IMG/VR virus record: IMGVR_UViG_3300027969_000436 | Coordinates: 1 to 23,227 of that record | Length of the DNA stretch: 23,227 nt | Source of the DNA: a virus | Reading direction: 5' to 3' (one strand) | In this document: piece by piece, positions 1 through 13,009 of the stretch | How the letters are laid out: every line of letters begins with the position of its first letter | How positions within the stretch are numbered: position 1 is the stretch's first letter | Position numbers and translations under genes: made by a program | Notes under the pieces: generated by a model | Seen by the model: the letters and a program-made list of their open reading frames with translations, nothing else | Database searches by the model: none | What the model was told of the DNA's origin: nothing

Positions 1-143
1 TACATACTACAGATATTAGAGGTAGAGAACAGTTTCACGTAGCGGATTATAGTGCTCCTACAGAGAATTTTGTAGATATCGATACTACTAGTAGATCAGA
101 GTTTGAAGTATTTCAAGAATTAAGACAAAAATTGAGTTTATGA
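1..143 (+). CDS. APS kinase-like protein, C-terminal end only
   Basis: An open frame runs in from the left edge (codons from position 3) and stops at TGA 141-143, giving the last 46 residues of a protein. The end reads like the C-terminus of adenylylsulfate (APS) kinases: a YSAPTENFVDIDTT stretch corresponds to the family's 'YE.P..P.lv..T' segment and is followed by an amphipathic helix. The P-loop and catalytic residues lie outside the window, so the call rests on this short match and on context: the next genes are a HxGH nucleotidyltransferase and a DUF2061 protein, both often seen beside APS kinases. APS kinase phosphorylates APS to PAPS, the sulfuryl donor for sulfotransferases such as the two encoded downstream. 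Its stop overlaps the next start (ATGA). Another small P-loop kinase remains possible. Confidence 0.45.
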   Translation, partial: HTTDIRGREQFHVADYSAPTENFVDIDTTSRSEFEVFQELRQKLSL

Positions 144-526
144 AAAATATATTAGCAAAAGGCAACAGTAATGGTAAAGGTCATGCAATGTTTATCGGTA
201 GATGGCAACCTTGGCATGATGGACATCGCTGGTTAATAGACCAGGCTTTAAGCGAAGGTAAAAAGGTACTACTATGTATTAGGGATGTAGAGCCTGATGA
301 GAAAAATCCCTGGACTGCACATGAGGTTCTAATGAATCTTGCTACAGTCTTAATAGATCTAGTATCTGAAGGAAAAATAAAGATTATTATTATTCCTGAT
401 ATTGAATCGGTAAATATTGGCAGAGGAATCGGGTATGATGTTATAGAGCACGTACCACCACAAGAGATTCATGATATCTCTGCTACTCAAATTAGAGAGC
501 AAATGAAAAAAGAGGGCAAATTATGA
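140..526 (+). CDS. HxGH-family nucleotidyltransferase (cytidylyltransferase-like)
   Basis: A 128-residue protein of the HxGH nucleotidylyl transferase superfamily. The nucleotide-binding signature GRWQPWHDGH is at residues 20-29, and the second signature ISATQIR, which contacts the triphosphate, is at 113-119. The family transfers NMP from an NTP to a phosphate- or sulfate-like acceptor; NMN adenylyltransferase, PPAT and ATP sulfurylase all belong to this fold. Residues about 45-60 (CIRDVEPDEKNPWTAHEV) resemble phage and marine bacterial homologues that occur next to APS kinase. The substrate cannot be read from sequence; a minimal ATP-sulfurylase-like role feeding APS kinase is attractive but unproven. 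ATG 140 overlaps the upstream stop by four bases. A second Met at 188 begins just before the first motif and could be the true start. The stop overlaps the next gene by four bases, so the genes are probably translationally coupled. Confidence 0.8.
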   Translation: MKNILAKGNSNGKGHAMFIGRWQPWHDGHRWLIDQALSEGKKVLLCIRDVEPDEKNPWTAHEVLMNLATVLIDLVSEGKIKIIIIPDIESVNIGRGIGYDVIEHVPPQEIHDISATQIREQMKKEGKL

Positions 527-1095
527 GTTTTAATTTTGACTATACTGGATACTTTGATGTGTCCGAGATGAAAGCTAAACTAGCTAACGTTGGAGAAGAA
601 ATCTGGTCAGAGCATACTATTAGACAAAGTATCTTTGGTGCACATAAGCATACAGAGACTGTAGAGTTGATTTGGGATATTGATTCTATTTACGAAAACG
701 TAAAAGGAAAGGTACATTCGAACTTTTATAAGTTTGATATCCAGACTCTACTAGACGGATTACAGCCAATATACGAAGCCAAGTACGGTAAAGGAGAGTT
801 TATCCGAGTATTACTAGTTAAGTTAAAGAAGCAATCTAGAATTAAACCGCATATAGATAATACTGACAGTCTAGAGTTTTGTAAAAGGACACATATTGCA
901 TTAATAACGAATCCGGAGGTTATTTTTAGAGTCGGAGGAGAGGAAAAATATATGCAAGAGGGAGAAATCTGGGAGATTAATAATCAGAATATGCATTCAG
1001 TAGAAAATAATAGTGATCTAGATAGGATTCATTTTATTATAGATTTTGCTATAAGAGAACATAAGAATAGCAAAAAAACGAAATCATTGGTATGA
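523..1095 (+). CDS. Aspartyl/asparaginyl beta-hydroxylase-like Fe(II)/2-oxoglutarate dioxygenase
   Basis: A 190-residue protein with the double-stranded beta-helix dioxygenase signature of the AspH family. The iron ligands are H110 and D112 (PHID) and H158 (HSVEN), and R168 (RIHFIID) is the expected 2-oxoglutarate anchor. The intervening THIALIT and GEIWEINN segments are also typical of AspH domains. The family hydroxylates Asp/Asn side chains in proteins, and related enzymes act on small molecules or peptides; the substrate here is unknown. It lies in an overlapping gene string with the nucleotidyltransferase and DUF2061 genes. Its last residues, KTKSLV, belong to the K-[ST]-L-[LIV] C-terminal tail shared with four downstream proteins. 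The first 90 residues have no motif I recognise. Confidence 0.8.
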   Translation: MSFNFDYTGYFDVSEMKAKLANVGEEIWSEHTIRQSIFGAHKHTETVELIWDIDSIYENVKGKVHSNFYKFDIQTLLDGLQPIYEAKYGKGEFIRVLLVKLKKQSRIKPHIDNTDSLEFCKRTHIALITNPEVIFRVGGEEKYMQEGEIWEINNQNMHSVENNSDLDRIHFIIDFAIREHKNSKKTKSLV

Positions 1096-1301
1096 TAGTA
1101 GAGAAAAAACGACATATAGCTAAGACAGTCAGCTATAGAATTGTAAGCACCTTAATAGGATTTTTAATTATGTGGCTGATAAGCGGTTCAATTAAGGTAG
1201 GAGCTGCATTCGGAATAGCAGAGTTAGTGTATAAACCGATTCAGTACTATATTCATGAAAGAATATGGTATAAATGGATTAAATACGGACTCAGGAAGTA
1301 A
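1092..1301 (+). CDS. DUF2061 small membrane protein
   Basis: A 69-residue protein matching the DUF2061 pattern: a basic start (KKRHIAKTVSYR), a hydrophobic segment at about residues 15-31, a second weaker hydrophobic stretch at about 36-48 (GAAFGIAELVYKP), and an aromatic-rich end (YYIHERIWYKWIKYG). It is probably an inner-membrane protein with one or two spans. DUF2061 has no established activity but is frequently encoded next to or fused with sulfate-activation genes, which fits the probable APS kinase upstream. ATG 1092 overlaps the preceding stop by four bases. It does not carry the shared C-terminal tail of its neighbours, ending in YGLRK. It closes the first overlapping gene string; a TATTTAT-type candidate promoter follows. 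Confidence 0.75.
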   Translation: MIVEKKRHIAKTVSYRIVSTLIGFLIMWLISGSIKVGAAFGIAELVYKPIQYYIHERIWYKWIKYGLRK

Positions 1302-1311
1302 AATTACAAAC

Positions 1312-1326
1312 TATTTATGTATAAAG
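1312..1326 (+). promoter_or_regulatory. Candidate late promoter, TATTTAT type
   Basis: TATTTATGTATAAAG begins 25 bases before the ATG at 1337. It contains a dyad (TTTAT-GT-ATAAA), so it could be read on either strand. The same TATTTAT core lies 24-33 bases before the ATGs at 5794, 6340, 9036 and 9619. Promoter function is inferred from recurrence and position, not from a known sigma consensus. Confidence 0.45.
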
Positions 1327-1336
1327 AGATAAGCTA

Positions 1337-2854
1337 ATGAGAACATTATTAATAGGTTCGGACTTTATGTACGACAGAGACGGTAATTTAAAGCCAATTG
1401 AAATCAATACATCTGTTGGTTGGCACTATAATAAACTAGAGAGTAATGAAGAAGCTTTAGATTTGAGCGGGCTTACGGCTTTCATTTCAGAACGTAGTTT
1501 CAACAAGATCGTATATATCGGCAACATTAGTCATTTGAATACTACACTGAAAACCTTTACTGCAGGATTATCTTTAGAATACGAATACTTTAAAGTAACA
1601 GAAGGAAGTCTTACTGTACCGTTTGTAGAAGATACCGAAACTACCCTTATTATAAGAAGTGCCTACGACACTACAGCTATTGTAGACAGTACGTACTGTC
1701 GAGATAAAGTAGAGTTTCTTAAGCTAATAAAAGACCAGACTTTTGGATTTCAATTTGCATATTTAGATAGCGATAGCAATCTTACTAACTATATTACGAG
1801 TATAGCAGATAATGGACAACACCCTAATTTTATTTTAAAAGCTAGATATCCAAACTACGATAAAAGCCAGTACCCTAAATTATTTAAAGTTACTAATCAA
1901 CAAGAATTGGATGTAGTCTTAAGTACTTTAACAGAGGACTATTTCTTAATGGAATTCTTATTCAATCCCTCTACTTTACTAGGAGATCATCTTCAGTTAA
2001 AAAGAGGTTTATCTTTACTATACCCTCCTACTTTAGAATCTATACCTCTAGGAGGCTATACAACATTCTGTACAGACGTTGTAACAGGAGAAAAGCAATA
2101 CGATACCGAGACTTTCGAGTTAATATCTTCTAAGAATGCTTACATAACTGCCGACTTCACCCATAAACTTCCTAAATTAGAACAAACCGACTTAGTAGTT
2201 ATGGCAGACGGAACTACAAAATCAGCAGCAGACTTACAAGTTGGAGATCTTATTAAGACTATTGATATTCCAAATCCGTTTAATGTAGGTAACTACGACG
2301 AAACTGCAAATTATAAAATTACAGTCGATGAGTTAGAAGCCGGAACTACGTATTCGACTAACAAGATACTAAAAAAAGCTACAATTAATACTTGGTGCCC
2401 TATAACAAAGTTGAACTTTACTGACGCAACAGATTGGCTTGACACAGAAGGTTCAAAGTACTTAGCTGTAAAGAATAATGAAGTTAGGTTTTTATCTATT
2501 AGACCGAACTCTCCGGAAGAGAATACTTTAGCAATAGGGGATACAGTCTTATTACTAGATGCTTCAAACTTAGAGACTCCTACGTTTGTAGAAAAAGTAG
2601 TTGCAAGTATAGAAACAATATCTCAGTTCTTTGGCGGGTACATTATTGAAGTAGAAAGAGAGCATTTATTCTTAACTAGAGCTTCGGCAGAAGACAATAC
2701 TTCTTTTGTAGCTATTGAACACAACGCTGCACCTTGTTATGAAGGATACTATAGCGGATGTAATTACAGTGTATACTGTAGTAAGAGTACCCCGCTTTGC
2801 TGTGGTTCAACTTACACCTGCAGATCAGGCTGCAACAACTGCCCTCAACCTTAA
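1337..2854 (+). CDS. Multidomain protein: ATP-grasp-like segments, Hint-like domain, Cys-rich tail
   Basis: A 505-residue protein of unknown role. Residues 8-27 (GSDFMYDRDGNLKPIEINTS) resemble the metal-binding 'D...EIN' loop near the C-terminus of ATP-grasp enzymes, but here it sits at the N-terminus. Residues about 165-210 (FILKARYP, then a 'vtnqqEL..vl' helix and FLMEFL) resemble the ATP-grasp nucleotide-binding subdomain, so a permuted or degenerate ATP-grasp fold is possible. Residues about 286-463 look like a Hint (hedgehog/intein) domain: VVMADGTTK at 287-295, DLQVGD at 299-304, IIEVEREHLFLT at 436-447 and a terminal HN at 462-463. The usual N-terminal Cys/Ser nucleophile is not visible, so self-splicing is unlikely. 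The last 39 residues hold eight Cys (467, 475, 481, 488, 489, 495, 499, 502), suggesting disulfides or metal binding. A candidate promoter precedes it. It could be a virion or secreted protein. The fold assignments are pattern recognition only. Confidence 0.65.
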   Translation: MRTLLIGSDFMYDRDGNLKPIEINTSVGWHYNKLESNEEALDLSGLTAFISERSFNKIVYIGNISHLNTTLKTFTAGLSLEYEYFKVTEGSLTVPFVEDTETTLIIRSAYDTTAIVDSTYCRDKVEFLKLIKDQTFGFQFAYLDSDSNLTNYITSIADNGQHPNFILKARYPNYDKSQYPKLFKVTNQQELDVVLSTLTEDYFLMEFLFNPSTLLGDHLQLKRGLSLLYPPTLESIPLGGYTTFCTDVVTGEKQYDTETFELISSKNAYITADFTHKLPKLEQTDLVVMADGTTKSAADLQVGDLIKTIDIPNPFNVGNYDETANYKITVDELEAGTTYSTNKILKKATINTWCPITKLNFTDATDWLDTEGSKYLAVKNNEVRFLSIRPNSPEENTLAIGDTVLLLDASNLETPTFVEKVVASIETISQFFGGYIIEVEREHLFLTRASAEDNTSFVAIEHNAAPCYEGYYSGCNYSVYCSKSTPLCCGSTYTCRSGCNNCPQP

Positions 2855-2876
2855 CCTATATATAAAAAATTATAAA

Positions 2877-2954
2877 ATGACAAATACAGAAAAAGGATCT
2901 ATAAATCAAGTAATGACAGTAATCGGGAGTCTTATAATTACTGCTAATTCTTAA
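2877..2954 (+). CDS. Possible 25-residue small protein
   Basis: A short frame begins at ATG 2877 directly after an A-rich leader (TAAAAAATTATAAA), the leader style of real genes in this window. It encodes MTNTEKGSINQVMTVIGSLI followed by ITANS, with a short hydrophobic stretch in the second half. The frame is open further upstream to 2715, but that part overlaps the Cys-rich end of the preceding gene in another frame and is most likely spurious. The space between 2854 and 2972 is otherwise empty. No homologue is recognised and the protein may not exist. Confidence 0.3.
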   Translation: MTNTEKGSINQVMTVIGSLIITANS

Positions 2955-2971
2955 ATGGATCAGTAAACGTT

Positions 2972-3250
2972 ATGTTCGATAAAATAAAAGAAATAGCACA
3001 GTCGTGGATAATTGCATCTAATCCAACTGTTAGACAAAAAGAACTAGCTCAACAAAGGTATAATATCTGTGTAGGGTGTAAGTACTATGGAGAGGCTAGA
3101 CCTATTACAGGAGAAGAGTATTGTATAGATTGTTTATGTCCTTTAGATAAAAAAGTATTTTCTCCAAAAATCGATGCATGTCCTAGGCATTTTTGGTTAC
3201 AAATAGAAGAAGAGTATTTTAAAGAAAAGAATACTAAGACACTTCTATAA
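2972..3250 (+). CDS. Small zinc-ribbon-like protein with shared C-terminal tail
   Basis: A 92-residue protein with cysteines spaced as metal ligands: C33-x2-C36, then C51-x2-C54-x-C56-P, and C70-P followed by H73. This is a small zinc-ribbon or treble-clef pattern of a kind common in marine phage genomes without assigned function. The N-terminal 30 residues are predicted helical (FDKIKEIAQSW, RQKELAQQRYNIC). It may bind nucleic acid or a protein partner; nothing here decides which. It is followed after eight bases by the first sulfotransferase-like gene. Its last residues, NTKTLL, are the clearest example of the K-[ST]-L-[LIV] tail shared with four other proteins in the block, which suggests it works with those enzymes. 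Confidence 0.7.
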   Translation: MFDKIKEIAQSWIIASNPTVRQKELAQQRYNICVGCKYYGEARPITGEEYCIDCLCPLDKKVFSPKIDACPRHFWLQIEEEYFKEKNTKTLL

Positions 3251-3258
3251 AAAAAGTT

Positions 3259-3861
3259 ATGAGATTATTAATGCTATATACGCCACGTTGCGGCTCTACC
3301 TCTATCTTAAAGTACTTTGAAAAAATAAATCCAGAGTATACTATAATTAGTCAACCCTGGTCTCCTTTAGTCGCTGAATTAGAAGCAAAGAATAAAGTAG
3401 AGTACACTCAAATCGTATCTAGCAAGAACGTATTTGTAAAATCAGCTATCGGATTGTTTTTTTATAAGCAAATTCCCTACGAAGCTGTTAAACAGGACTT
3501 TGACAAAATTCTTGTATTGTCGAGAAGGAATCACAAAGAACAAACTGAAAGCCTAGCATATGCTGCTAAGCACAATTCTTTCCTGGAACCCACTAGATAT
3601 CTTATTGATGAAAAGTTAGACTTTTTCATGGATGAAATGGATAAGGTACTGTTAGATGAGAAGAGCAGAATCCAAGAACTAGAAGAGCATCTAAATGCTA
3701 AGGTTTTCTACTACGAAGACTTATACTATAATAGCTTCGACAACTTATTTAAGTATTTGGAGATAGAACATGTTGAAGAATACTTTAAGATGTTTTTAGA
3801 TATTAAAAATAGATATAGGTTAGATAGTGCCTCTACAAAAAATATAAAATCTTTAATATAA
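3259..3861 (+). CDS. Sulfotransferase-like protein 1
   Basis: A 200-residue protein with the PAPS-dependent sulfotransferase layout. The N-terminal beta strand and 5'-phosphosulfate loop are at residues 3-14 (LLMLYTPRCGST). The 3'-phosphate-binding strand and helix are at about 84-102, with R89 and S98 in RRNHKEQTES. A later YYEDLYYNSFDNLFKYL segment (151-167) is shared with the second sulfotransferase-like gene at 4421. The family moves a sulfuryl group from PAPS to a hydroxyl or amine of a sugar, protein or small molecule; the acceptor is unknown. At about 200 residues it is shorter than typical enzymes (about 250-300) but keeps both cofactor motifs. The probable APS kinase at the window start would supply PAPS. 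It ends in NIKSLI, a variant of the shared C-terminal tail. It may be a soluble cytoplasmic enzyme, since no signal peptide is evident. Confidence 0.75.
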   Translation: MRLLMLYTPRCGSTSILKYFEKINPEYTIISQPWSPLVAELEAKNKVEYTQIVSSKNVFVKSAIGLFFYKQIPYEAVKQDFDKILVLSRRNHKEQTESLAYAAKHNSFLEPTRYLIDEKLDFFMDEMDKVLLDEKSRIQELEEHLNAKVFYYEDLYYNSFDNLFKYLEIEHVEEYFKMFLDIKNRYRLDSASTKNIKSLI

Positions 3862-3869
3862 AATTTAGA

Positions 3870-4424
3870 ATGCAATTTATAAAAACATTTAAAGATTTTT
3901 TAAATAAAAATGAGTGTGAAGTTATCATTAATGAAAATTCTAAAAAAGAATTAGAAAATGGAAATATAGGAAGTAATCTCAGCTTACAAGAACTTAAAAA
4001 AATAAGAGACGCAAAAATAGTTAGAATTGAAAATGAAATTTTGCAATCAAAGTTAGAAGCTTTACTAAAAGAAGAAATTAAATTAAAAGGGTATGAACTA
4101 GGTCCTATTAATAAATTTCAATTTATAAAATATGATATTGGAGGACACTATGATTGGCATAGTGATTCTGGAGATGGTGAGATATTTAGAGATAGATTTT
4201 ACACAGCTGTAATACAATTAAATAATGATTATGAAGGCGGAGATTTATTATATAAAGAATCAAATATGTTAGAATATACTTTTGAAAAGGGTATTGGAAA
4301 TTTATTTATTTTTAATTCAAATTTACTACACAAAGTAACACCAATAACAAACGGTAGTAGGTTTTCATTAGTAACCTGGATTACTTTAAAACGAAATAAT
4401 TCAGATAAAAAAACTTTACTGTGA
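3870..4424 (+). CDS. Prolyl-4-hydroxylase-like 2-oxoglutarate/Fe(II) oxygenase
   Basis: A 184-residue dioxygenase of the P4H/PKHD type. The iron-binding HxD is H97-S-D99 (YDWHSDSG), the distal ligand is H154 (LLHKVTPI) and the 2-oxoglutarate anchor is R164 (GSRFSLVTWI). The GGDLLY turn at 123-128 is also family-typical. It differs from the AspH-like enzyme upstream in motif spacing and surrounding sequence, so the block holds two unrelated dioxygenase types. The substrate is not deducible. The gene is markedly more AT-rich than its neighbours: by hand count about 15 G/C in the 90 bases at 3871-3960, against about 19 of 60 at 3601-3660. This suggests recent acquisition. It nevertheless ends in DKKTLL, the tail shared with flanking genes. 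It sits between the two sulfotransferase paralogues, and its stop overlaps the next start (GTGA). Confidence 0.85.
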   Translation: MQFIKTFKDFLNKNECEVIINENSKKELENGNIGSNLSLQELKKIRDAKIVRIENEILQSKLEALLKEEIKLKGYELGPINKFQFIKYDIGGHYDWHSDSGDGEIFRDRFYTAVIQLNNDYEGGDLLYKESNMLEYTFEKGIGNLFIFNSNLLHKVTPITNGSRFSLVTWITLKRNNSDKKTLL

Positions 4425-4981
4425 TTATAACAATTTTAGCAGAGCCTAGATCTGGTTCGACTAATTTAGCAAATTGGTTTTGTTCTAAGCAAGACTTTAC
4501 TGTCCTGTTTGAACCAATGACAAATTCAAAGATGAAATGGTTCAAAGGCAGTACGCCGCCTTCTGAGTGGAAATACTCTACAGAACACTTACTTGTAAAA
4601 GAGATCTTAGGTAATGGATTGCATTTTAATGAGTTAATTTCAATCTCTGATAAAGTAATACTATTGTACAGAGAGAATGAAAGAGAGCAGTTAGATTCAT
4701 GGATAAATGCTACTATTGAAAATAATTGGGGAGATCAATGGGTGTACAGTAGTTTAAAAAATGAAAAAGAAGAGAAATCTTTTAAAGAAGTAAAAAGAGT
4801 TTTTAAAGAACATTATTTAGCTAAGGATTATTTTAGAGTATCTTACGAAGAACTATACTACGGTAGCGGTTTTAAAAGAGTATTAGAGTATTTAAGTATT
4901 GAAGGCCTAGAAAACATAGGATTTCCCTACGGAAAAAAGTACAGAATCAACTTAGAAACTAATATTAAAACTCTACTATGA
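4421..4981 (+). CDS. Sulfotransferase-like protein 2 (GTG start)
   Basis: A 186-residue paralogue of the protein at 3259. The 5'-phosphosulfate loop is at residues 9-14 (PRSGST). The 3'-phosphate motif is at 84-93 (RENEREQLDS), aligning with RRNHKEQTES of the first copy as R-x-N-x-x-E-Q-x-x-S. A VSYEELYYGSGFKRVLEYL segment matches the corresponding part of the first copy. The start is GTG 4421, overlapping the upstream stop as GTGA; no ATG is available before the phosphosulfate loop in this frame. It probably uses PAPS to sulfate an unknown acceptor. The two copies are diverged enough to suggest separate acceptors or a heterodimer rather than a recent duplication. It ends in NIKTLL, the shared tail, and overlaps the SGNH hydrolase gene by four bases (ATGA). 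Confidence 0.75.
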   Translation: MIITILAEPRSGSTNLANWFCSKQDFTVLFEPMTNSKMKWFKGSTPPSEWKYSTEHLLVKEILGNGLHFNELISISDKVILLYRENEREQLDSWINATIENNWGDQWVYSSLKNEKEEKSFKEVKRVFKEHYLAKDYFRVSYEELYYGSGFKRVLEYLSIEGLENIGFPYGKKYRINLETNIKTLL

Positions 4982-5730
4982 TAAAATATTGGACACCAGA
5001 TACGTTTGAAGTATCTTCCTATAAGTGGAAGTTAGAAGCAAGAAAAAGTAAAGTGTATAAGACATCAGGATCTGATAACTCAGGAGAAAACACTTACACT
5101 TATAACTCTTTAGGATTTAGAGGAGATGAACCTACTAGAGAAGGATTTAAGGTAATGTCTTTAGGCTGTTCACATACAGAAGGAGTAGGAGTAGATGATA
5201 ATAAAACCTGGTCACATCAACTCTGTAAACTAATACCTAACGCAGTAGATTTAAACTTCGGATTCGGAGGTAGAAGTAGCGATTACGTTTCAAGATGTTT
5301 ATTAACATATTACGACTTAATTAAACCAGACTTGGTTTTAATAATGTATCCAAACCAAGATAGAAGAGACTACTATACTAATGAAGGAGGAGTTGAACCT
5401 TTTGCATGGAATCCTTGGGGGTACTTTAAAGAAGACCCCGCAGGAAGAGAGACATACCATCATTTATCTAATATTACTAATAAAGAAGATGGAACTGTTA
5501 ACTGGTATAAGAACCACTTATTGATTAAATATTTTTTACAGACTAAAAATACTCCGTTTGTATGGAATGGAGCCCATGTATATAAAGCTATAGAAGAACC
5601 TAATCGATTTGACGATGATTATAGGAATTATAGAGACTATGGATCAGATGGTGCACATCCTGGCCCTGAACACAACAGAATCTATGCAAATAACCTATAT
5701 AATTTCTTAAAAGAAAATAAAATACTGTAA
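4978..5730 (+). CDS. SGNH/GDSL-family hydrolase
   Basis: A 250-residue protein with the SGNH hydrolase blocks in order: the nucleophile motif LGCSHTEG with S65, the block II glycines in FGFGGRSSDY (94-103), the block III Asn in MYPNQDRR (N126), and the catalytic Asp/His pair in DGAHPG (D224, H227). The NSLGFRGDEP segment (43-52) just before the nucleophile is common in this family. SGNH enzymes remove acyl groups from carbohydrates, lipids or peptides; a phage enzyme could deacetylate host surface glycan or edit a modified product of the block. It begins by ATGA overlap with the sulfotransferase gene, so it belongs to the same transcription unit. It ends in ENKIL, which only partly resembles the neighbours' C-terminal tail. 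No signal peptide is visible. Confidence 0.85.
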   Translation: MIKYWTPDTFEVSSYKWKLEARKSKVYKTSGSDNSGENTYTYNSLGFRGDEPTREGFKVMSLGCSHTEGVGVDDNKTWSHQLCKLIPNAVDLNFGFGGRSSDYVSRCLLTYYDLIKPDLVLIMYPNQDRRDYYTNEGGVEPFAWNPWGYFKEDPAGRETYHHLSNITNKEDGTVNWYKNHLLIKYFLQTKNTPFVWNGAHVYKAIEEPNRFDDDYRNYRDYGSDGAHPGPEHNRIYANNLYNFLKENKIL

Positions 5731-5793: not shown

Positions 5794-6030
5794 ATGTTAT
5801 TCGGAATCATTATTGTAGTAGTAGCAGTAGCTGTTGCTTACTTACTAAACAAGTCTAAGATCTCTAAAGCTATTGAAAACGCAAAGGAAGCGATTACTCC
5901 AGCAGTTGAAGAAGTAGTAGAAGTAGTAGAAAAGGTAGAAAAGGTAGCTCCTAAGAATGAAGTAGCGAAAAAAGCTTCAAAAGCAGCTAAAGACGCTAAA
6001 GCAATAGTTAAACAAGCAAAAAAGAAGTAA
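5794..6030 (+). CDS. Small membrane-anchored Lys/Ala/Glu-rich protein
   Basis: A 78-residue protein with two parts. Residues 2-18 are a hydrophobic segment (LFGIIIVVVAVAVAYLL), a likely N-terminal membrane anchor or uncleaved signal. The rest is a charged, low-complexity helix: a Glu/Val part (EEVVEVVEKVEKV) followed by a Lys/Ala part ending in QAKKK. The second part resembles histone-H1-like basic tails, but the resemblance may be only compositional. No family is recognised. It follows a candidate late promoter and is one base from the next gene, so it is probably made late with the tail genes. Possible roles are a membrane-associated assembly or lysis accessory, or a virion DNA-associated peptide. 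Nothing in the sequence decides between these. Confidence 0.65.
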   Translation: MLFGIIIVVVAVAVAYLLNKSKISKAIENAKEAITPAVEEVVEVVEKVEKVAPKNEVAKKASKAAKDAKAIVKQAKKK

Positions 6031-6031
6031 A

Positions 6032-6286
6032 ATGTCAGAAAAAGTTACGTTAACACAGGAAGAACTTAAAGAGTTCCAAGGTCTTAGAGAAGAAATCTTC
6101 GAAACAATCGGAGTTTTAGGTGATTTAAATTACAAAAAGACTCTTTTAGAGTTTGAGATTGAGAATTTAAACAGTATTATTAAGCAGAACGCTTTAAAAG
6201 AAAAAGCCCTATTGACAGGGTTTGGCACTAAGTACGGTAATGGTTCTATCGACGTAGAAACCGGCGTTATCACACCAATACAATAA
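6032..6286 (+). CDS. Small coiled-coil protein, function unknown
   Basis: An 84-residue protein. Residues 6-60 are predicted helical with heptad-like hydrophobics (LTQEELKEFQGLREEIFETI, then LLEFEIENLNSIIKQ), so a coiled-coil dimer is likely. The C-terminal part (YGNGSIDVETGVITPIQ) looks like a short beta hairpin. Similar small coiled-coil genes lie near the tail sheath gene in marine T4-like phages, but I know no assigned function. The start follows the upstream stop by one base, and a candidate promoter for the sheath gene follows within 30 bases of its stop. It may be a structural or assembly accessory. Confidence 0.65.
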   Translation: MSEKVTLTQEELKEFQGLREEIFETIGVLGDLNYKKTLLEFEIENLNSIIKQNALKEKALLTGFGTKYGNGSIDVETGVITPIQ

Positions 6287-6310
6287 ATTAGGTTTTGCCA
6301 TCATTACCAG

Positions 6311-6331
6311 CTATTTATTATCAGAAATAAA
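6311..6331 (+). promoter_or_regulatory. Candidate late promoter before the sheath gene
   Basis: CTATTTATTATC at 6311-6322 carries the recurrent TATTTAT core 28 bases before the sheath ATG. TTTATT (6314-6319) and AATAAA (6326-6331) form an inverted repeat with a six-base spacer. Strong expression is expected for the sheath, the major tail protein. Confidence 0.5.
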
Positions 6332-6339
6332 CACATAAA

Positions 6340-8112
6340 ATGGCAGAAGCATTAATTAGTCCTGGCGTTTTCCTTAGAGAAAACGACCTTTCTCAAATAA
6401 CAGCAGGTCCAATTACAGTAGGATCGGCTTTAATCGGCCCTACAGTAGTAGGAAAAGTGAATATCCCAACCCTTGTAACTTCATACTCAGAGTATAAAGC
6501 TAAGTACGGAACTACTTTCATTTCTGGAGGTAATACACAAGAGTACTTAACTTCTCAAGCAGCTTACAACTACTTCCAACAAGGAGGTACTTCGTTGTTA
6601 GTAACGAGAGTAGCGAGTGGTTCTTATACTGCAGCTACTTCTTCTACAGTTGTTAATAGCTTAGGTTCAGCTTCTTTCCAAATAAGTACTTTATCAGTAG
6701 GTACAGTGATGAATAATAGCCAAGGCGCTACTACAGCAACTAACGGCTTGTTACCTTCTGGTTCTGCTGACAACGTTAGATGGCAGATCTCTCAAGCTGA
6801 TTCGGCTTCAGGGTACTTTACTCTACTTGTTAGACAAGGAAATGATTACACACAAGGACAAACAGTATTAGAAACCTGGACTAATTTATCTCTAGATCCA
6901 AATCAAAACAACTATATTGCATACGTAATTGGAGATCAAGATCAAAGAGTGGCTTATGATGAAAGCGGTGCTGCTTATTTAAATATAACAGGCAGTTACC
7001 CTAACAGATCTAATTATATTAGAGTATCTAGCGTATATTTTCCAACACCAAACTACTTAGATCCGCAAGGTCGAGCATATGCGGCTTATACAGCTTCTAT
7101 TCCTTTAAACGGTAGCGGATCTGCAAACGGTAGCTTTGGTGGTGCAACTGGTGCTTTATACGGAGGTTTATTATCAAACGGAAGTGCTTCTGTTGCATTA
7201 AATTTATTCGAACAAATTCCAACAGTAGCTGCAACAGCTGCTGCTAACAATATTCAAGGTCTAGTTAATAATGACTACGACGTCGCAATTAGCTTACTTG
7301 CAAATTCAGATGCCTATGCTTATAACGCAATTTACGCACCAGGTATTACTAATCAGAACGCTGCAAGTCAAGTATCTACTTTATTAAGCACGGTTCAAAA
7401 CCGCGGTGATGCTATTGCAGTAGTTGACATGGTTGGATACAATCAAAATATTACAGCAGTAACTACTGGAGCTCAATCTTACGATAATTCATACGGTGCT
7501 ACATATTGGCCTTGGGTTCAAGTAAGATCCCAAGAAACAGGTAGATTAAACTTCGTACCGGCCTCTACTATTATCCCAGGAGTATATGAATACAATGATA
7601 AAGTATCTGCTGAGTGGTTTGCACCTGCAGGTCTTAACAGAGGAGGTTTACCAACAGTAATCCAGCCAGAAAGAAGATTAACAGTAGCACAAAGAAACAC
7701 TTTATATACAGGTAAAGTAAACCCAATCGCAGTATTCCCAGGTCAAGGTACAGTAGTATATGGTCAAAAGACTTTACAAGCTAGAGCTTCTGCTTTAGAT
7801 AGAGTAAATGTAAGACGTTTATTAATCGCATTGAAGGGATATATTGGTCAAATTGCAGAAACATTAGTATTTGAACAAAATACTGCTGTAACTAGAAATA
7901 AATTCTTATCTCAAGTTAACCCTTACTTAGAGTATGTACAACAGAGACAAGGTTTATATGCATTCAGAGTGGTAATGGACGAAACCAATAACACACCAGA
8001 TGTAATCGATAGAAACTTACTTGTAGGTGCTATCTACTTACAGCCAACTAGAACAGCTGAATACATCCAATTAGATTTCAACGTATTACCAACTGGAGTA
8101 ACATTCGGTTAA
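6340..8112 (+). CDS. 18: Contractile tail sheath protein (T4 gp18-like)
   Basis: A 590-residue tail sheath protein, a little shorter than T4 gp18 (659). The N-terminus (ISPGVFLRENDLSQ, then GPTVVGKVNIPTLVTSYSEY) is the conserved sheath start. The C-terminal third contains the conserved sheath core: the WFAPAGLNRGG loop, NPIAVFPGQGTVVYGQKTL, a long helix (RRLLIALKGYIGQIAETLVF) and the final IQLDFNVLPTGVTF strand that donates to neighbouring subunits. The middle region, residues about 120-290, is Ser/Gly/Thr/Asn-rich and is probably the variable surface domain. The protein forms the helical contractile sleeve around the tail tube. A TATTTAT-type site precedes it, and the tail tube gene follows after one intervening gene. 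AGA is the usual Arg codon, with a few CGN codons. Confidence in the family is high. Confidence 0.95.
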   Translation: MAEALISPGVFLRENDLSQITAGPITVGSALIGPTVVGKVNIPTLVTSYSEYKAKYGTTFISGGNTQEYLTSQAAYNYFQQGGTSLLVTRVASGSYTAATSSTVVNSLGSASFQISTLSVGTVMNNSQGATTATNGLLPSGSADNVRWQISQADSASGYFTLLVRQGNDYTQGQTVLETWTNLSLDPNQNNYIAYVIGDQDQRVAYDESGAAYLNITGSYPNRSNYIRVSSVYFPTPNYLDPQGRAYAAYTASIPLNGSGSANGSFGGATGALYGGLLSNGSASVALNLFEQIPTVAATAAANNIQGLVNNDYDVAISLLANSDAYAYNAIYAPGITNQNAASQVSTLLSTVQNRGDAIAVVDMVGYNQNITAVTTGAQSYDNSYGATYWPWVQVRSQETGRLNFVPASTIIPGVYEYNDKVSAEWFAPAGLNRGGLPTVIQPERRLTVAQRNTLYTGKVNPIAVFPGQGTVVYGQKTLQARASALDRVNVRRLLIALKGYIGQIAETLVFEQNTAVTRNKFLSQVNPYLEYVQQRQGLYAFRVVMDETNNTPDVIDRNLLVGAIYLQPTRTAEYIQLDFNVLPTGVTFG

Positions 8113-10383: not shown

Positions 10384-10648
10384 ATCCGCTCTCTTTACCC
10401 AAATACATGAGATAGTATTCTACGGAAAAGGAGGTTATAATTGGGAGACTGTATATAATATGCCTATTTGGCTACGTAATTTCACTTATAAAACTATGAA
10501 TGATTTTTACGAAAAACAGCAAGAAGCAAACGATCAAGCTAGTAACAAAGGAAAATTAGTTACAGCTAATAAACCTCTAGCAAAACCAGGAATTCCAAAC
10601 TCAACTAAAGCAATACCTACATATACGAGCAAAGTGTCTAAAAAATAG
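10364..10648 (+). CDS. Frameshift-encoded C-terminal extension of the gp26-like protein
   Basis: In the +1 frame 94 codons run from the T7 slip site to the stop at 10648. From about 10379 the sequence looks strongly protein-like: YRSALFTQIHEIVFYGKGGY, then NWETVYNMPIWLRNFTYKTM, then a charged helix and a Pro/Lys/Thr-rich end. There is no ATG, GTG or TTG in frame between the slip site and GTA 10415, and the first ATG is 10460, in the middle of the YNMPIWLR segment. An independent 62-residue protein starting at 10460 would lose the best conserved-looking part. I therefore prefer expression as a fusion to the gp26-like protein (about 248 + 94 residues). By analogy with lambda G/GT, the extension would recruit the tape measure protein encoded next. 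A cryptic independent start is the alternative. Confidence 0.6.
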   Translation: MLPQEYRSALFTQIHEIVFYGKGGYNWETVYNMPIWLRNFTYKTMNDFYEKQQEANDQASNKGKLVTANKPLAKPGIPNSTKAIPTYTSKVSKK

Positions 10649-10658
10649 GCACTTTCTC

Positions 10659-10668
10659 TATTTATATA
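10659..10668 (+). promoter_or_regulatory. Candidate late promoter at the tape measure gene
   Basis: TATTTATATA ends one base before the first possible ATG (10670) of the tape measure gene. If this is a -10-type element, transcripts would begin after that ATG, and translation from this promoter would have to start at the next in-frame ATG, 10694 (35 bases from the motif start, similar to the other sites). Confidence 0.4.
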
Positions 10669-10669
10669 C

Positions 10670-13009
10670 ATGGACTTACTACGTAAATTTTACATGGCTA
10701 CTTCAACTGGTGGTGGCGGAAATACTTCTGACGAAGCTGGAAAGACTAATGAAAAATTTGAACAGTTAAAAGAAACAGTAGAAATACTAAAAGATTCTTT
10801 TGAGAGTATAGGCAGACTTCTTAAAGACGAAATTAACGATAACCTATCGGATGCTGCTAGACAGACTAGAGATTGGGGAAAATCAGTTGCTTCTGGTATT
10901 AATAAAGATCTTCAGAGCATGGCTAAATCTAGCCAAGATATCTTAAAAACACAGATAGCTATAGCAGACGGGTCTATTAAGGAAAGAGATATAACTAAGC
11001 AAAAAAACGAATTTTTAAAGAGAACTGCACAAGCAGAGATAGATATTAAAAATGCTCGAAAGAACCAATTAATCTCTGCAAGCACTTTCCTTAAGATGAC
11101 AAGAGAGCTTAAAGAAAAGCAGAAAGAACAATTAGCAGTATATGCACAGCAAGAGATGTACGCAAGAAAGATCGAATCTTCTATGGGTAATCTCGGTAAA
11201 ATCTTTAAAGGTCTTGCACAAGTACCTATTGTAGGACAACTTGTCAATGCAGAAAAGATTCTTGAAAAAATGCAAAAAGCAGCCGGTGAAGGGAAAGGGC
11301 AGCTTGGAGTAATGGGCGCTGGAATAAAAGAAACTTTTAAAACAGCAGGCGATAGCTTAACAGACCTTACAACAGTCCTCCCTGGTATAGTGACTGGATT
11401 TATTGCTCTTGCTAAATTAGCTGCCGACTTTGAATCTAAACAGTTTGAAACAGCTAAAAATTTAGGAGTTAGTGTAGCTAGAGGAAAAGAATTAAGGACT
11501 GGTTTCATAGAGCTTGCAAAAGCTAACTTACAATTAGGTGTAACTGCCGATCAATTAGAAAAATCATACGAAGGTGTACAGAATCAGTTAGGGTTTATTG
11601 TTAAACAAAGTCAAGAGTTTAACTTAAGTACCGCTCTAATTGAAAGACGTACTGGCGCTTCTGCTGAAAGTATGGCATTACTACAGTTTGCTGCTAAAAA
11701 ATCAGGAGATACTCTAATGGGAACTTATAAAACCATCTCAGGTATTACTAAAGAAACTGGTGCAAGAGTTAAATTAGAATTATCAGAAAAGCAGGTACTA
11801 GAAGAAGTCGGCAAAGTATCTGCAACCGTATATCAAAATTTTAGAGGTAATTATAAAGAGTTAACAGGAGCAGTAATACAAGCCAAAGCATTAGGTACTA
11901 CTCTTGATAAAATTAATGCAACTCAAGATCAGTTTTTAGATTTTGAAACTAGTATACAAAAGCAATTTGAAGCCGAAGTACTAACAGGCGAAAATTTAGA
12001 GTTATCTAAAGCAAGACAGCTTGCCCTTTCTCATGATACTAAAGGGCTAATGGTAGAGCTTAATAGACTTATCGGCGATAATGCAAAATGGAATCAATTA
12101 GATTCTATCTCACAGAGAGCTAAAGCGGAAGCCATAGGTATGAGTAGAGATTCAATTGCAGAAATGTTCAGAGATCAAGAAAAAGCAAAAGTACTAGGTG
12201 AAGCTGCAGGCGCTGATTTACGTACTCAGTATGATATACTAGTTGCACAACACAAAACAAGACAGCAAATAGTAGCTACATTAGGAGAAGAAGCAGTAAA
12301 TAGTGCACAACAAGCCTCAGTATCAGAAAAACTTGCTGCTACAATGGATGCTATTAAAAATTCTATTGCACAAATGGCAACTGTACTGCTTCCAATGATT
12401 ACTAAAGTCGCTGATTGGTTAGCTAACATGAAAAATCTTAAAACAGTATTTGCAGGCATTGTCGGTCTATTAGCAGCAGCAGCATCATATAGCTTTGCTA
12501 TAAAAACAGCAAACGCTATAAACTTAGCAATGAGTAGGCAAGAGCTTAGTACAATGGCCTCTCGTTTAGCAGGGGAAACAGCTATAGCGACAACAAAAGC
12601 TGCTGGTGCAGCAAGTTCTGTAACAGCAGGATCAGCCTATTTAGGGCCAGGCGCTATAGCAGTAGGTGCAGCAGCATTCGCAACGTTAATGGGGTACTTA
12701 GCCTATAATTCATCAATGAGCGGAATGGATAGTTTAGGAGCTCCAGGGGATACCGGTGCTAGCGGAGCAGGAGGAGGAGGCGAAACAACTGCAATGCCTA
12801 GCAGTACTACCTCAATACCTAGCACTGGTATGAGCGCTGCATCAACTCCAGCTTCTTCAACTGCAAGTAGTTCAACCTCTTATACACCTTCAGGAACAAA
12901 TGTAACTTCTGGAAACGGTAAAAGTACAGGAGATGTTTATATAGATGGAGCTAAAATAGGTCAAATTATCTTTAAAAATGCTAATCAACAGCAATTAAAC
13001 GTAGTCTAA
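10670..13009 (+). CDS. Tail tape measure protein (T4 gp29 position)
   Basis: A 779-residue protein, or 771 if it starts at ATG 10694, which the promoter-like motif at 10659-10668 favours. Residues about 20-190 are charged, coiled-coil-prone helices. Hydrophobic segments occur at about 236-256 (VLPGIVTGFIALAKLAADF), 593-612 (FAGIVGLLAAAASYSFAI) and 661-680 (AIAVGAAAFATLMGYLAY). A Gly/Ser/Thr-rich linker (about 690-750) leads to a final beta-like end (DVYIDGAKIGQIIF). Long helical sequence with membrane-compatible segments, placed after the frameshifted chaperone-like gene and before baseplate genes, is typical of tape measure proteins, which set tail length and are expelled into the host envelope. 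At the usual ~0.15 nm per residue it would specify a tail of roughly 115 nm. There is no obvious peptidase domain. T4 order places gp29 just before gp48 and gp54, consistent with this gene. Confidence 0.78.
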   Translation: MDLLRKFYMATSTGGGGNTSDEAGKTNEKFEQLKETVEILKDSFESIGRLLKDEINDNLSDAARQTRDWGKSVASGINKDLQSMAKSSQDILKTQIAIADGSIKERDITKQKNEFLKRTAQAEIDIKNARKNQLISASTFLKMTRELKEKQKEQLAVYAQQEMYARKIESSMGNLGKIFKGLAQVPIVGQLVNAEKILEKMQKAAGEGKGQLGVMGAGIKETFKTAGDSLTDLTTVLPGIVTGFIALAKLAADFESKQFETAKNLGVSVARGKELRTGFIELAKANLQLGVTADQLEKSYEGVQNQLGFIVKQSQEFNLSTALIERRTGASAESMALLQFAAKKSGDTLMGTYKTISGITKETGARVKLELSEKQVLEEVGKVSATVYQNFRGNYKELTGAVIQAKALGTTLDKINATQDQFLDFETSIQKQFEAEVLTGENLELSKARQLALSHDTKGLMVELNRLIGDNAKWNQLDSISQRAKAEAIGMSRDSIAEMFRDQEKAKVLGEAAGADLRTQYDILVAQHKTRQQIVATLGEEAVNSAQQASVSEKLAATMDAIKNSIAQMATVLLPMITKVADWLANMKNLKTVFAGIVGLLAAAASYSFAIKTANAINLAMSRQELSTMASRLAGETAIATTKAAGAASSVTAGSAYLGPGAIAVGAAAFATLMGYLAYNSSMSGMDSLGAPGDTGASGAGGGGETTAMPSSTTSIPSTGMSAASTPASSTASSSTSYTPSGTNVTSGNGKSTGDVYIDGAKIGQIIFKNANQQQLNVV

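Follow-up and report, generated by a model that had tools for sequence, protein, structure and literature searches.

What do several enzymes of different families, encoded almost side by side on one viral genome, gain by ending in the same few residues? The question is posed by a 23,227-nucleotide stretch of DNA (positions 1 to 23,227 of IMG/VR virus record IMGVR_UViG_3300027969_000436, hereafter the window), for which a preliminary description had proposed that five accessory proteins share a C-terminal tail, K-[ST]-L-[LIV], that is kept as protein and not as a DNA repeat. Translation, combined with inspection of the final 15 bases of each gene, places all five tails exactly where they had been reported (Table 1), with codons that are indeed unlike among the five genes; within the window's 26 non-overlapping open reading frame (ORF) calls, the tag is limited to these five. 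The SGNH/GDSL-like hydrolase likewise proves to be the partial case that it was said to be, ending in ENKIL and belonging to a family in which 2 of 129 members have the strict tail and 58 of 129 a looser one. The further claim that only the two sulfotransferases are homologous holds in part: these two form one sequence family and the other three proteins fall into three other families, but the AspH-like and P4H-like enzymes, which match different Pfam families, belong to what we take to be one fold superfamily, so that 'unrelated' applies to sequence only. The name of sulfotransferase 1 derives from the earlier reading of the sequence and from an RxGSTS-type N-terminus, Pfam giving no match.

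Table 1. Tagged genes, their neighbours and the parts of the partner protein, in order along the window.
Feature	Position	Strand	Match or basis	C-terminal tail and tag
Nucleotidyltransferase-like protein (neighbour)	140..526	+	PF01467, 1.2e-5	untagged
AspH-like 2OG oxygenase	523..1095	+	PF05118, 1.9e-15	tag KKTKSLV at 1072-1092
DUF2061 membrane protein (neighbour)	1092..1301	+	PF09834, 9.9e-17	untagged
Partner protein, 505 aa: predicted ATP-grasp-like part, Hint domain and Cys-rich tail	1337..2854	+	AF2 (mean pLDDT 83.5), Foldseek	untagged
Partner, predicted ATP-grasp-like part (residues 1-270)	1337..2146	+	Foldseek matches to glutathione synthetase, E ~1e-4	
Partner, predicted Hint domain (residues 277-463)	2165..2725	+	Foldseek match to BIL2 6y75, E 2.3e-8	
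Partner, variable Cys-rich tail peptide (42 residues, 8 Cys), presumed released	2726..2851	+	low pLDDT	
Zinc ribbon protein	2972..3250	+	conserved CxxC...CxxC.C...C	...EKNTKTLL; tag KNTKTLL at 3227-3247
Sulfotransferase-like protein 1	3259..3861	+		...TKNIKSLI; tag KNIKSLI at 3838-3858
P4H-like 2OG-Fe(II) oxygenase	3870..4424	+	PF13640, 1.7e-13	...NSDKKTLL; tag SDKKTLL at 4401-4421
Sulfotransferase-like protein 2	4421..4981	+		...ETNIKTLL; tag TNIKTLL at 4958-4978
SGNH/GDSL-like hydrolase	4978..5730	+	PF13472, 0.0015 (below cut-off)	partial tag

Comparison with related loci strongly supports a shared C-terminal tag that is kept as protein. Across 218 such loci, the motif K[ST]L[LIVMF] stands at the end of 289 among 2,694 non-redundant ORFs. 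The rate of the motif at internal positions (100 in 524,195) predicts 0.51, and shuffling the final ten residues 1,000 times gives a mean of 2.07 (maximum 8), shuffling being one of the controls that the preliminary description had put forward. For the window itself, the internal rate gives P ~8e-15 for at least five tagged genes out of an assumed 23. The tag is also broad, appearing in 27 of 629 sequence families that include 2OG oxygenases, sulfotransferases, radical SAM enzymes, glycosyltransferases, the zinc ribbon protein and others; when each family is represented by a single random member, 13.8 of 629 are tagged versus 0.12 expected. Genes were called mechanically as longest ORFs, those cut at tile borders being excluded, and families are single-linkage BLAST groups, such that old superfamilies, the 2OG oxygenases for example, are split into several. 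Family counts left out pattern loci L010-L017, tiled contigs and control-phage loci; the zinc-ribbon set comprises 78 new loci among the 80 matches listed, and the radical SAM set 71 new loci among the 80 listed.

The tag extends over some seven residues, with the consensus K-x2-[KN]-[TS]-[LI]-[IL]-COOH: the conserved positions are -7 and -4 (Lys) and -3 (Thr/Ser), and most of the 580 tails close with L/I followed by I/L. A looser tail rule, with a background of 6/224 ORFs in the Flavobacterium phage immuto and 6/233 in contig G007, takes in 85 of 99 zinc ribbon family members; the Trp halogenase and SET families carry only this looser form (strict tail in 0/23 and 0/13 members, respectively). 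Hydrophobic C-termini can act as degrons, and a signal that limits enzyme lifetime might look somewhat like this one. The conserved Lys and Thr/Ser positions nevertheless exceed a mere hydrophobic end, and sampled homologues in phages that lack the partner gene described below are without the tag, which makes degradation a very improbable role. Degrons of the ssrA/tmRNA type end in -LAA and can be rejected from the residues found at the last two positions.

Is it the peptide that is conserved, or the DNA beneath it? Tag Ser is encoded by both TCN and AGY codons at background frequencies, Leu and Thr codons lie near background, and 273 tagged ends use 114 different DNAs; this codon use indicates that selection acts on the peptide, and it rules out a DNA repeat or recombination site. 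Features that might speak for similarity at the DNA level, including a translation signal at gene junctions, are the tight spacing of tagged genes (47% overlap the next ORF, versus 33%) and a skew toward AAA for tag Lys (95% versus 81%) and ATA for the final Ile (78% versus 42%). Set against the codon diversity, and against tagged genes that also lie on the opposite strand (G008 82549-84321; G010 10569-11474 and 16543-17769), they leave a DNA-based origin with almost no probability.

The preliminary description had advised looking for a receptor gene that is conserved wherever the tag occurs, and one clear candidate emerges in the ATP-grasp-Hint protein encoded between the AspH-like and zinc ribbon genes (the partner). 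We considered loci with full flanks (at least 20.9 kb), a length reached by 23 of the 71 radical SAM loci and by 22 partner loci. The partner gene is present at all 23 of the former, which were found independently via the radical SAM enzyme and hold 18 distinct partner sequences, and at least two tagged ORFs are present at all 22 of the latter, again with 18 distinct partners. The zinc ribbon occurs at 17 of the 23 radical SAM loci; the absence of a zinc ribbon call from the other six eliminates it as a universal receptor. The nucleotidyltransferase-like and DUF2061 families are each present at 35 of 80 non-redundant loci.

The tag is nearly confined to loci of this kind, which belong to uncultured phages. 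Zinc ribbons are untagged in three phages that have no partner call (L132-L134, L146, L151), and contig G007 (167 kb) carries no partner gene and no strict tag among its 233 ORFs. The strict tag is found in none of the 224 ORFs of the related phage immuto and in none of 151 ORFs flanking five halogenase homologues from cultured or single-cell phage regions, and 12 of 12 P4H homologues sampled from cultured phages lack it. Cultured phages yielded two weak matches to the zinc ribbon, and a search of the cultured-phage collection with one partner sequence as query gave no match. Untagged homologues, which the preliminary description had considered damaging to the idea of a tag, therefore exist, but mainly where the partner gene is absent. 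Five distinct zinc ribbons adjoining the partner also break the rule, three with odd hydrophobic ends and two (L034, L150) with no tag. The association with the partner gene could reflect a shared cassette instead of binding.

We read the partner as a probable self-processing precursor, in which a predicted ATP-grasp-like part and a predicted Hint domain precede a variable, disulfide-rich tail peptide. Residues E22, N24, K168 and R223 of the ATP-grasp-like part are invariant in a 45-row partner alignment; a sequence-profile search of PDB sequences returned no ATP-grasp protein. Residues 276-465 of the AF2 model align with BIL2 6y75 at a Z score of 15.4, a second Hint/BIL match reaching 13.8, and the terminal His-Asn pair of the domain (H462 and N463, encoded at 2720-2725) is kept in 45/45 rows. 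The predicted fold and this pair are shared with BIL/Hint domains, whereas the splicing-position Cys is not, nor do those domains have an ATP-grasp-like part ahead and a Cys-rich peptide behind. Residue 280, which aligns with intein residue 1, is Lys in 35 rows, His in 9, Gln in 1 and Cys in none, and the lack of an N-terminal Cys/Ser nucleophile in all 45 sets the domain apart from protein-splicing inteins. The 185 partner ORFs with His-Asn (duplicates included) provide 84 distinct short tails, those longer than 75 residues, S74-type ones among them, having been left out of the count. Every one of the 84 has an even number of Cys, namely 6, 8 or 10 in 83 and none in one. In some versions of the partner, an S74-like domain replaces the Cys-rich end. 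Two contig scans, with a sensitivity limited by the search pattern, gave 38 and 12 stretches that matched the pattern, none of which was confirmed as a cellular relative of the partner or the radical SAM enzyme.

Given this arrangement, we consider the chances about even that the tag is a real C-terminal recognition tag on the enzymes of one phage pathway, built round the self-processing partner and docking them there. Consistent with an accessible address, the tails lie outside the conserved fold in family alignments, that of the P4H-like enzyme included, and the single tail that was modelled is disordered. The preliminary description had proposed structure prediction as a check on docking, and here the result went the other way: in an AF2 model of a read-through fusion between partner and zinc ribbon, the tag was left unplaced, with pLDDT <50. 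Tag variants of unrelated families within one contig resemble each other at chance level (largest z 1.76), and co-variation thus gives no sign of a phage-specific receptor. PDZ domains recognize ligands of the form [ST]-x-hydrophobic-COOH, which the tag fits with T/S at -3 and L/I at -1 from the end. A phage PDZ protein of the PDZ_6 type was rejected as receptor, PDZ_6 being found in 0 of 16 phage contigs as compared with 14 of 14 control genomes.

The same observations bear on a different possibility, that a host factor is what binds the tag, or that the tag directs enzymes to the membrane, an assembly site or the virion interior, the precursor gene being merely a co-traveller in the cassette. 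A receptor that is invariant between these phages would be expected to leave no co-variation, and the unplaced tag and missing PDZ_6 domains fit it too; encapsulins offer a precedent for short C-terminal targeting peptides (PMC8346489). The same zinc ribbon is nonetheless untagged in phages without the partner gene, and the related immuto is devoid of the strict tag; partner-less phages without tags argue against a host receptor, since it would serve them too. We therefore regard this explanation as unlikely, if still the most serious rival to docking on the partner.

The ATP-grasp-like part of the partner suggests yet another role, in which the tagged C-terminus is a substrate and an amino acid or the released peptide is ligated to its free carboxylate. 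ATP-grasp enzymes ligate carboxylates, some of them at protein C-termini, and the position of the tag at the exact protein end, together with the glutathione-synthetase-like prediction and the four invariant residues, agrees with such chemistry. The fold match is weak, however, and we see no evident reason for such a joint in at least a dozen enzyme families; we hold ligation to be improbable.

Returning to docking on the partner, the locus as a whole is best read as a hitherto undescribed pathway through which the phage would produce a disulfide-rich, self-released peptide and decorate it. The Hint domain would cleave solely at its own C-terminal Asn, thereby freeing the variable tail peptide, which the tagged hydroxylases, sulfotransferases, radical SAM enzymes and glycosyltransferases would decorate, joined by the Trp halogenase and SET proteins with their looser tails. 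A link between the Trp halogenase and tail composition (2.84 versus 1.12 Trp per tail) is uncorrected for descent and carries limited weight. The tag, as an exposed, flexible end, would keep the enzymes at one shared docking site, for which the precursor's folded part is the likeliest place, and a new enzyme could be recruited into the pathway by acquiring the tag.

How far does this scheme resemble known systems? In RiPP pathways, tailoring enzymes cluster round a ribosomally made precursor whose Cys-rich end varies, and in familiar examples it is the precursor's leader that binds the enzymes. At the gene level, both an enzyme cluster and a variable precursor tail are present here, modification of the tail being putative; the difference is that the short peptide sits on the enzymes themselves and that the precursor contains folded domains, one ATP-grasp-like and one Hint. 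More tentatively, then, we suggest an assembly line of the RiPP type in which recognition is reversed: portable tags on the enzymes would dock on a folded, self-cleaving ATP-grasp-Hint precursor that releases a 6-, 8- or 10-Cys peptide bearing hydroxyl, sulfate, halogen or sugar, modifications much like those of conotoxins, with enzymes swapped by gain or loss of the tag. The peroxisomal signal PTS1 is similarly a C-terminal address, a few residues long and ending in a free carboxylate, that can be carried by one enzyme or by another unrelated to it. It differs in that the present proteins belong to bacterial viruses, with no known organelle or Pex5-type receptor, and in that their motif is longer and has a conserved Lys at -7.

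Encapsulin targeting or cargo-loading peptides are likewise short C-terminal peptides that occur on enzymes of different families and bring them to a single partner whose gene is close by. Their TVGSL-type motif (PMC8346489) is unlike K-x2-[KN]-[TS]-[LI]-[IL], and the constant neighbour here is an ATP-grasp-Hint protein instead of an HK97-fold shell protein; no shell gene is known as the partner, although the phages should encode capsid proteins. Cargo loading, one of the roles put forward in the preliminary description, is neither supported nor contradicted by these data. Jumbo cyanophages also carry halogenases, 2OG oxygenases and carbamoyltransferases in clusters, which are interpreted in that study as a secondary-metabolite or polysaccharide system (PMC7824862); the five phage regions around halogenase homologues discussed above, which exclude the S-SSM6a cluster itself, differ in lacking the strict tag. 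Searches of the open-access literature listed no paper that, judged from title and abstract, deals with the tag or with a precursor of the ATP-grasp-Hint kind.

If the proposed mechanism is true, a seven-residue address tied to one partner gene would constitute a new and genetically simple design for an enzyme assembly line, as well as a ready tool for bringing enzymes to a substrate. It also provides a sequence handle, in that any phage protein with this tail that adjoins an ATP-grasp-Hint gene becomes a candidate pathway member. The probable product, a disulfide-rich peptide that is made in infection and decorated, would be a new type of phage molecule, with adhesin tip, superinfection block and weapon against competitors as roles open to testing.

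Collagen-like fibres were considered as a common substrate of the hydroxylases and rejected, since Gly-X-Y runs of at least 10 occur in only 3 of 2,694 ORFs and contain no Pro. Among the whole contigs G016, G002, G001 and G008 and the genome of immuto, G001 was the one with more Gly-X-Y runs.

The preliminary description had placed a shared C-terminal tail on five accessory proteins of the window, a 23,227-base phage sequence from IMG/VR, and had reported that its codons differ; the window sequence confirms both, the five ends being written in five different codon sets. Viral contigs were scanned five times with four baits (sulfotransferase 1; the untagged window protein at 1337-2854, used twice; the zinc ribbon; and a radical SAM enzyme from a neighbour cluster). 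Counting the window itself, the scans yielded 218 loci (3.38 Mb) with 2,694 non-redundant ORF ends. The strict tail, K[ST]L[LIVMF], forms the exact C-terminus of 289 of these ORFs. Its frequency inside proteins (100 in 524,195 positions) predicts 0.51 such ends, and 1,000 shuffles of the ten C-terminal residues give an expectation of 2.07 (maximum 8), which bears out the enrichment proposed earlier as a check. The tagged ends are spread over 27 of 629 sequence families, and drawing a single random member from each of the 629 gives 13.8 tagged against 0.12 expected. Under a looser rule the 89 families with at least five members are bimodal: 24 are at least 60% tagged, 55 at most 15%, and 10 lie between. 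Position by position, 580 ends of tagged families (80 non-redundant loci) give this consensus: at -7, K (43%); at -4, K (62%) or N (17%); at -3, T (39%) or S (22%); at -2, L (68%) or I (20%); and at -1, I (65%) or L (22%). A half-degenerate case is the SGNH-like hydrolase family (n=129), with the strict tail in 2 members and the looser tail in 58; is this family in transition, or is its tail a weaker, secondary version of the tag?

Within 273 tagged ends, Ser is encoded by TCN and AGY codons at background proportions (entropy 2.24 versus 2.26 bits), Leu and Thr codons are near background, and the 12-base tag DNA takes 114 different forms; the background Ser codons and this variety uphold the view that the tag is kept as protein and not as a DNA repeat. 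Two codons are biased, Lys AAA (95% versus 81% background) and the final Ile ATA (78% versus 42%), the latter fitting overlap with the start codon of the next gene, and genes on the opposite strand are tagged as well. Judged from its codons, selection on the tag acts at the peptide level.

By Pfam, strict tails occur on Asp/Asn hydroxylase-like and other 2OG-Fe(II) oxygenases, radical SAM enzymes with and without SPASM, GT90, a PLOD-type glycosyltransferase domain and UDP-sugar dehydrogenase; one tagged sulfotransferase family matches PF00685 below cut-off, and neither sulfotransferase-like protein of the window matches a Pfam family. Among 75 radical SAM ORFs from the 71 new loci of that scan, 60 carry the strict and all 75 the looser tail. 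Trp halogenases (19/23) and SET proteins (10/13) carry the looser tail and never the strict one (0/23 and 0/13). Enzymes of these kinds can decorate peptides, and several could act on sugars too. An untagged APS kinase (6.5e-17), an enzyme that provides the sulfate donor, likely supplies the sulfotransferases. A NodU/CmcH-type carbamoyltransferase near the cluster of tagged genes is mostly untagged (12% looser tails).

The commonest neighbour is the family of the untagged 505-residue window protein, an ATP-grasp-like and Hint protein (hereafter the partner), found in 72 of 80 non-redundant loci. Because the partner or the zinc ribbon served as bait in some of the scans, the fair measure of association is the radical SAM scan, in which the partner is present in 23 of 23 full-flank loci (22 by clustering and one divergent copy identified by eye; 18 distinct sequences at 95% identity) and the zinc ribbon in 17. 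All 22 full-flank loci found via the partner, again with 18 distinct partners, hold at least two tagged ORFs by the looser rule. A tblastn search of the cultured-phage collection with one partner member gave no match.

Along contigs, the strict tag, here K[ST][LI][LIVMFY], is seldom found beyond the cassette of tagged genes and partner, ending 1/229, 4/228, 6/204 and 6/202 ORFs in G002, G001, G008 and G010, respectively; two of the six in G008 lie away from the cassette. Of the ORFs lying less than 2 kb from the partner gene 31% bear it, against 0.4% at 8-10 kb. The contig of the window's own phage (G016, by a 100% match of sulfotransferase 1) ends inside the cassette and has strict tags in 2/142 ORFs. 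The tagged window genes lie upstream of the tail sheath gene. The closest relative of this sheath is that of Flavobacterium phage immuto, with 53% identity across 96%, which makes a host among the Bacteroidota probable; immuto itself has no strict tag in 224 ORF calls.

Coordinates of features in the window and related sequences
Feature	Sequence	Position	Loci
AspH-like enzyme, tagged	window	523-1095	
Partner	window	1337-2854	
Zinc ribbon, tagged	window	2972-3250	
Sulfotransferase 1, tagged	window	3259-3861	
P4H-like enzyme, tagged	window	3870-4424	
Sulfotransferase 2, tagged	window	4421-4981	
SGNH-like hydrolase	window	4978-5730	
APS kinase, untagged, near cassette	L054 and family	1202-1636	23/80
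Carbamoyltransferase	L085 and family	6009-7673	26/80
Strict tags away from cassette	G008	82549-84321; 149315-150061	
Partner with S74-like end	L077	7222-9171	
Partners with second Hint domain	L148; L149; L152	10189-12117; 11922-13847; 10292-12556	
Partner with Cys-less tail and adjacent untagged zinc ribbon	L150	235-468; 2267-3664	
Fibre-like proteins	G001	101178-111916; 148809-151139	
Fibre-like protein	L005	18392-20203	

Loci found via the zinc ribbon hold the partner gene in 72 of 78 cases. One of the six others is a tagged 5.7 kb fragment (L123); the remaining five, representing three phages (L132/L133/L134, L146 and L151), have untagged zinc ribbons that stop at the zinc finger (CPKKFWTK, CPKGKWKK, CPKKYWKV). 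Three of these five loci show their neighbourhood, and in them the zinc-ribbon gene immediately precedes a tail sheath gene belonging to the same family as the window's; the whole 167 kb contig of one of the three (G007) has neither partner gene nor strict tag in 233 ORFs. Over distinct zinc ribbons, 90 have partner and tag, 5 partner without tag (three with odd hydrophobic ends, two with none), 3 neither, and 1, on a 6.9 kb fragment, tag without partner (Fisher P 0.0014, uncorrected for descent). Among cultured phages, all 12 P4H homologues picked from 40 listed hits among 345 records end without the tag. Five regions that surround halogenase homologues (of 85 records), from cultured or single-cell phages, contain no strict tail in 151 ORFs. 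Tailless homologues, which the preliminary description had set against its own reading, therefore do exist among zinc ribbons and P4H proteins of phages without the partner, but the five zinc ribbons above lack the tail with the partner present.

The AF2 model of the partner (mean pLDDT 83.5, pTM 0.79) places a Hint domain at residues 276-465, matching the bacterial intein-like (BIL) domains of Tetrahymena (BIL2; Foldseek 2.3e-8, VIA Z 15.4) and Clostridium (Z 13.8), and an N-terminal part that resembles glutathione synthetases more weakly (1e-4), in which E22, N24, K168 and R223 do not vary over 45 rows. Searching PDB sequences with a profile found nothing significant. The His-Asn at 462-463 is invariant (45/45 rows) and the splicing-Cys position is occupied by Lys, His or Gln. 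General intein chemistry without the splicing Cys leaves C-terminal cleavage, so this alone would remain in the partner. Behind the His-Asn comes a variable tail. The 84 distinct tails counted (at most 75 residues, median 35.5) are enriched 14-fold in Cys, 3.2-fold in Pro and 2.6-fold in Trp. Their Cys count is 6 in 49, 8 in 32, 10 in 2 and none in 1, always even, which suggests disulfide pairing. Trp averages 2.84 in 19 tails from Trp halogenase loci versus 1.12 in 65 others, a difference whose P=3e-6 is untrustworthy as such, since the halogenase loci seem to come from a single group of related phages.

Both the tag and its association with the partner are firmly established, and the pattern of presence and absence suggests that it is read by the ATP-grasp-Hint protein or something always accompanying it. 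The tag follows the folded part of the enzymes, from which a variable-length linker separates it in the P4H family, and the one tail modelled was disordered in AF2, which fits an exposed docking peptide that would recruit the enzymes. The conserved receptor gene envisaged earlier has a candidate in the partner, to which docking is inferred. An AF2 read-through fusion of partner and zinc ribbon, with few paired sequences (13/70 rows), left the tag unplaced. Within contigs, variants of the tag show no co-variation (largest z 1.76 over 1,402 pairs from 489 tails in 80 loci). We give docking about an even chance; of the alternatives, a host receptor reading the tag ranks first, the tagged C-terminus as a ligation substrate second and a degron third. 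Short targeting peptides at the C-terminus are known, PTS1 and ssrA among them. Encapsulin cargo is also described as carrying such peptides (PMC8346489). Jumbo cyanophages carry clusters of halogenase, 2OG oxygenases and carbamoyltransferases, described as secondary-metabolite or polysaccharide systems (PMC7824862); the cultured relatives examined carry no tag. Paper searches of an open-access collection listed nothing describing the tag or the ATP-grasp-Hint-Cys-rich architecture.

Several partners depart from the common form. Some (L077 and about a dozen relatives among L078-L096, L101, L119 and L126) have a longer Cys/Tyr-rich middle followed by an S74-like domain (E 0.0021 in L077, below cut-off); with such a C-terminus, as in tail fibres, could the partner be a virion component? 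Three carry a second canonical-looking Hint domain behind the Cys-rich stretch (starts CFIGEAM, CFPAGTK or CFVAGTK; ends LVHN), and L152 apparently a third. At L150 only EGFFK, with no Cys, follows the His-Asn; the adjacent zinc ribbon is untagged, although the strict tag still ends three further ORFs there. Fibre-like proteins in G001 and L005 contain very long Gly-Thr-Ser/Gly-Ser-Asn collagen-like runs with almost no Pro.
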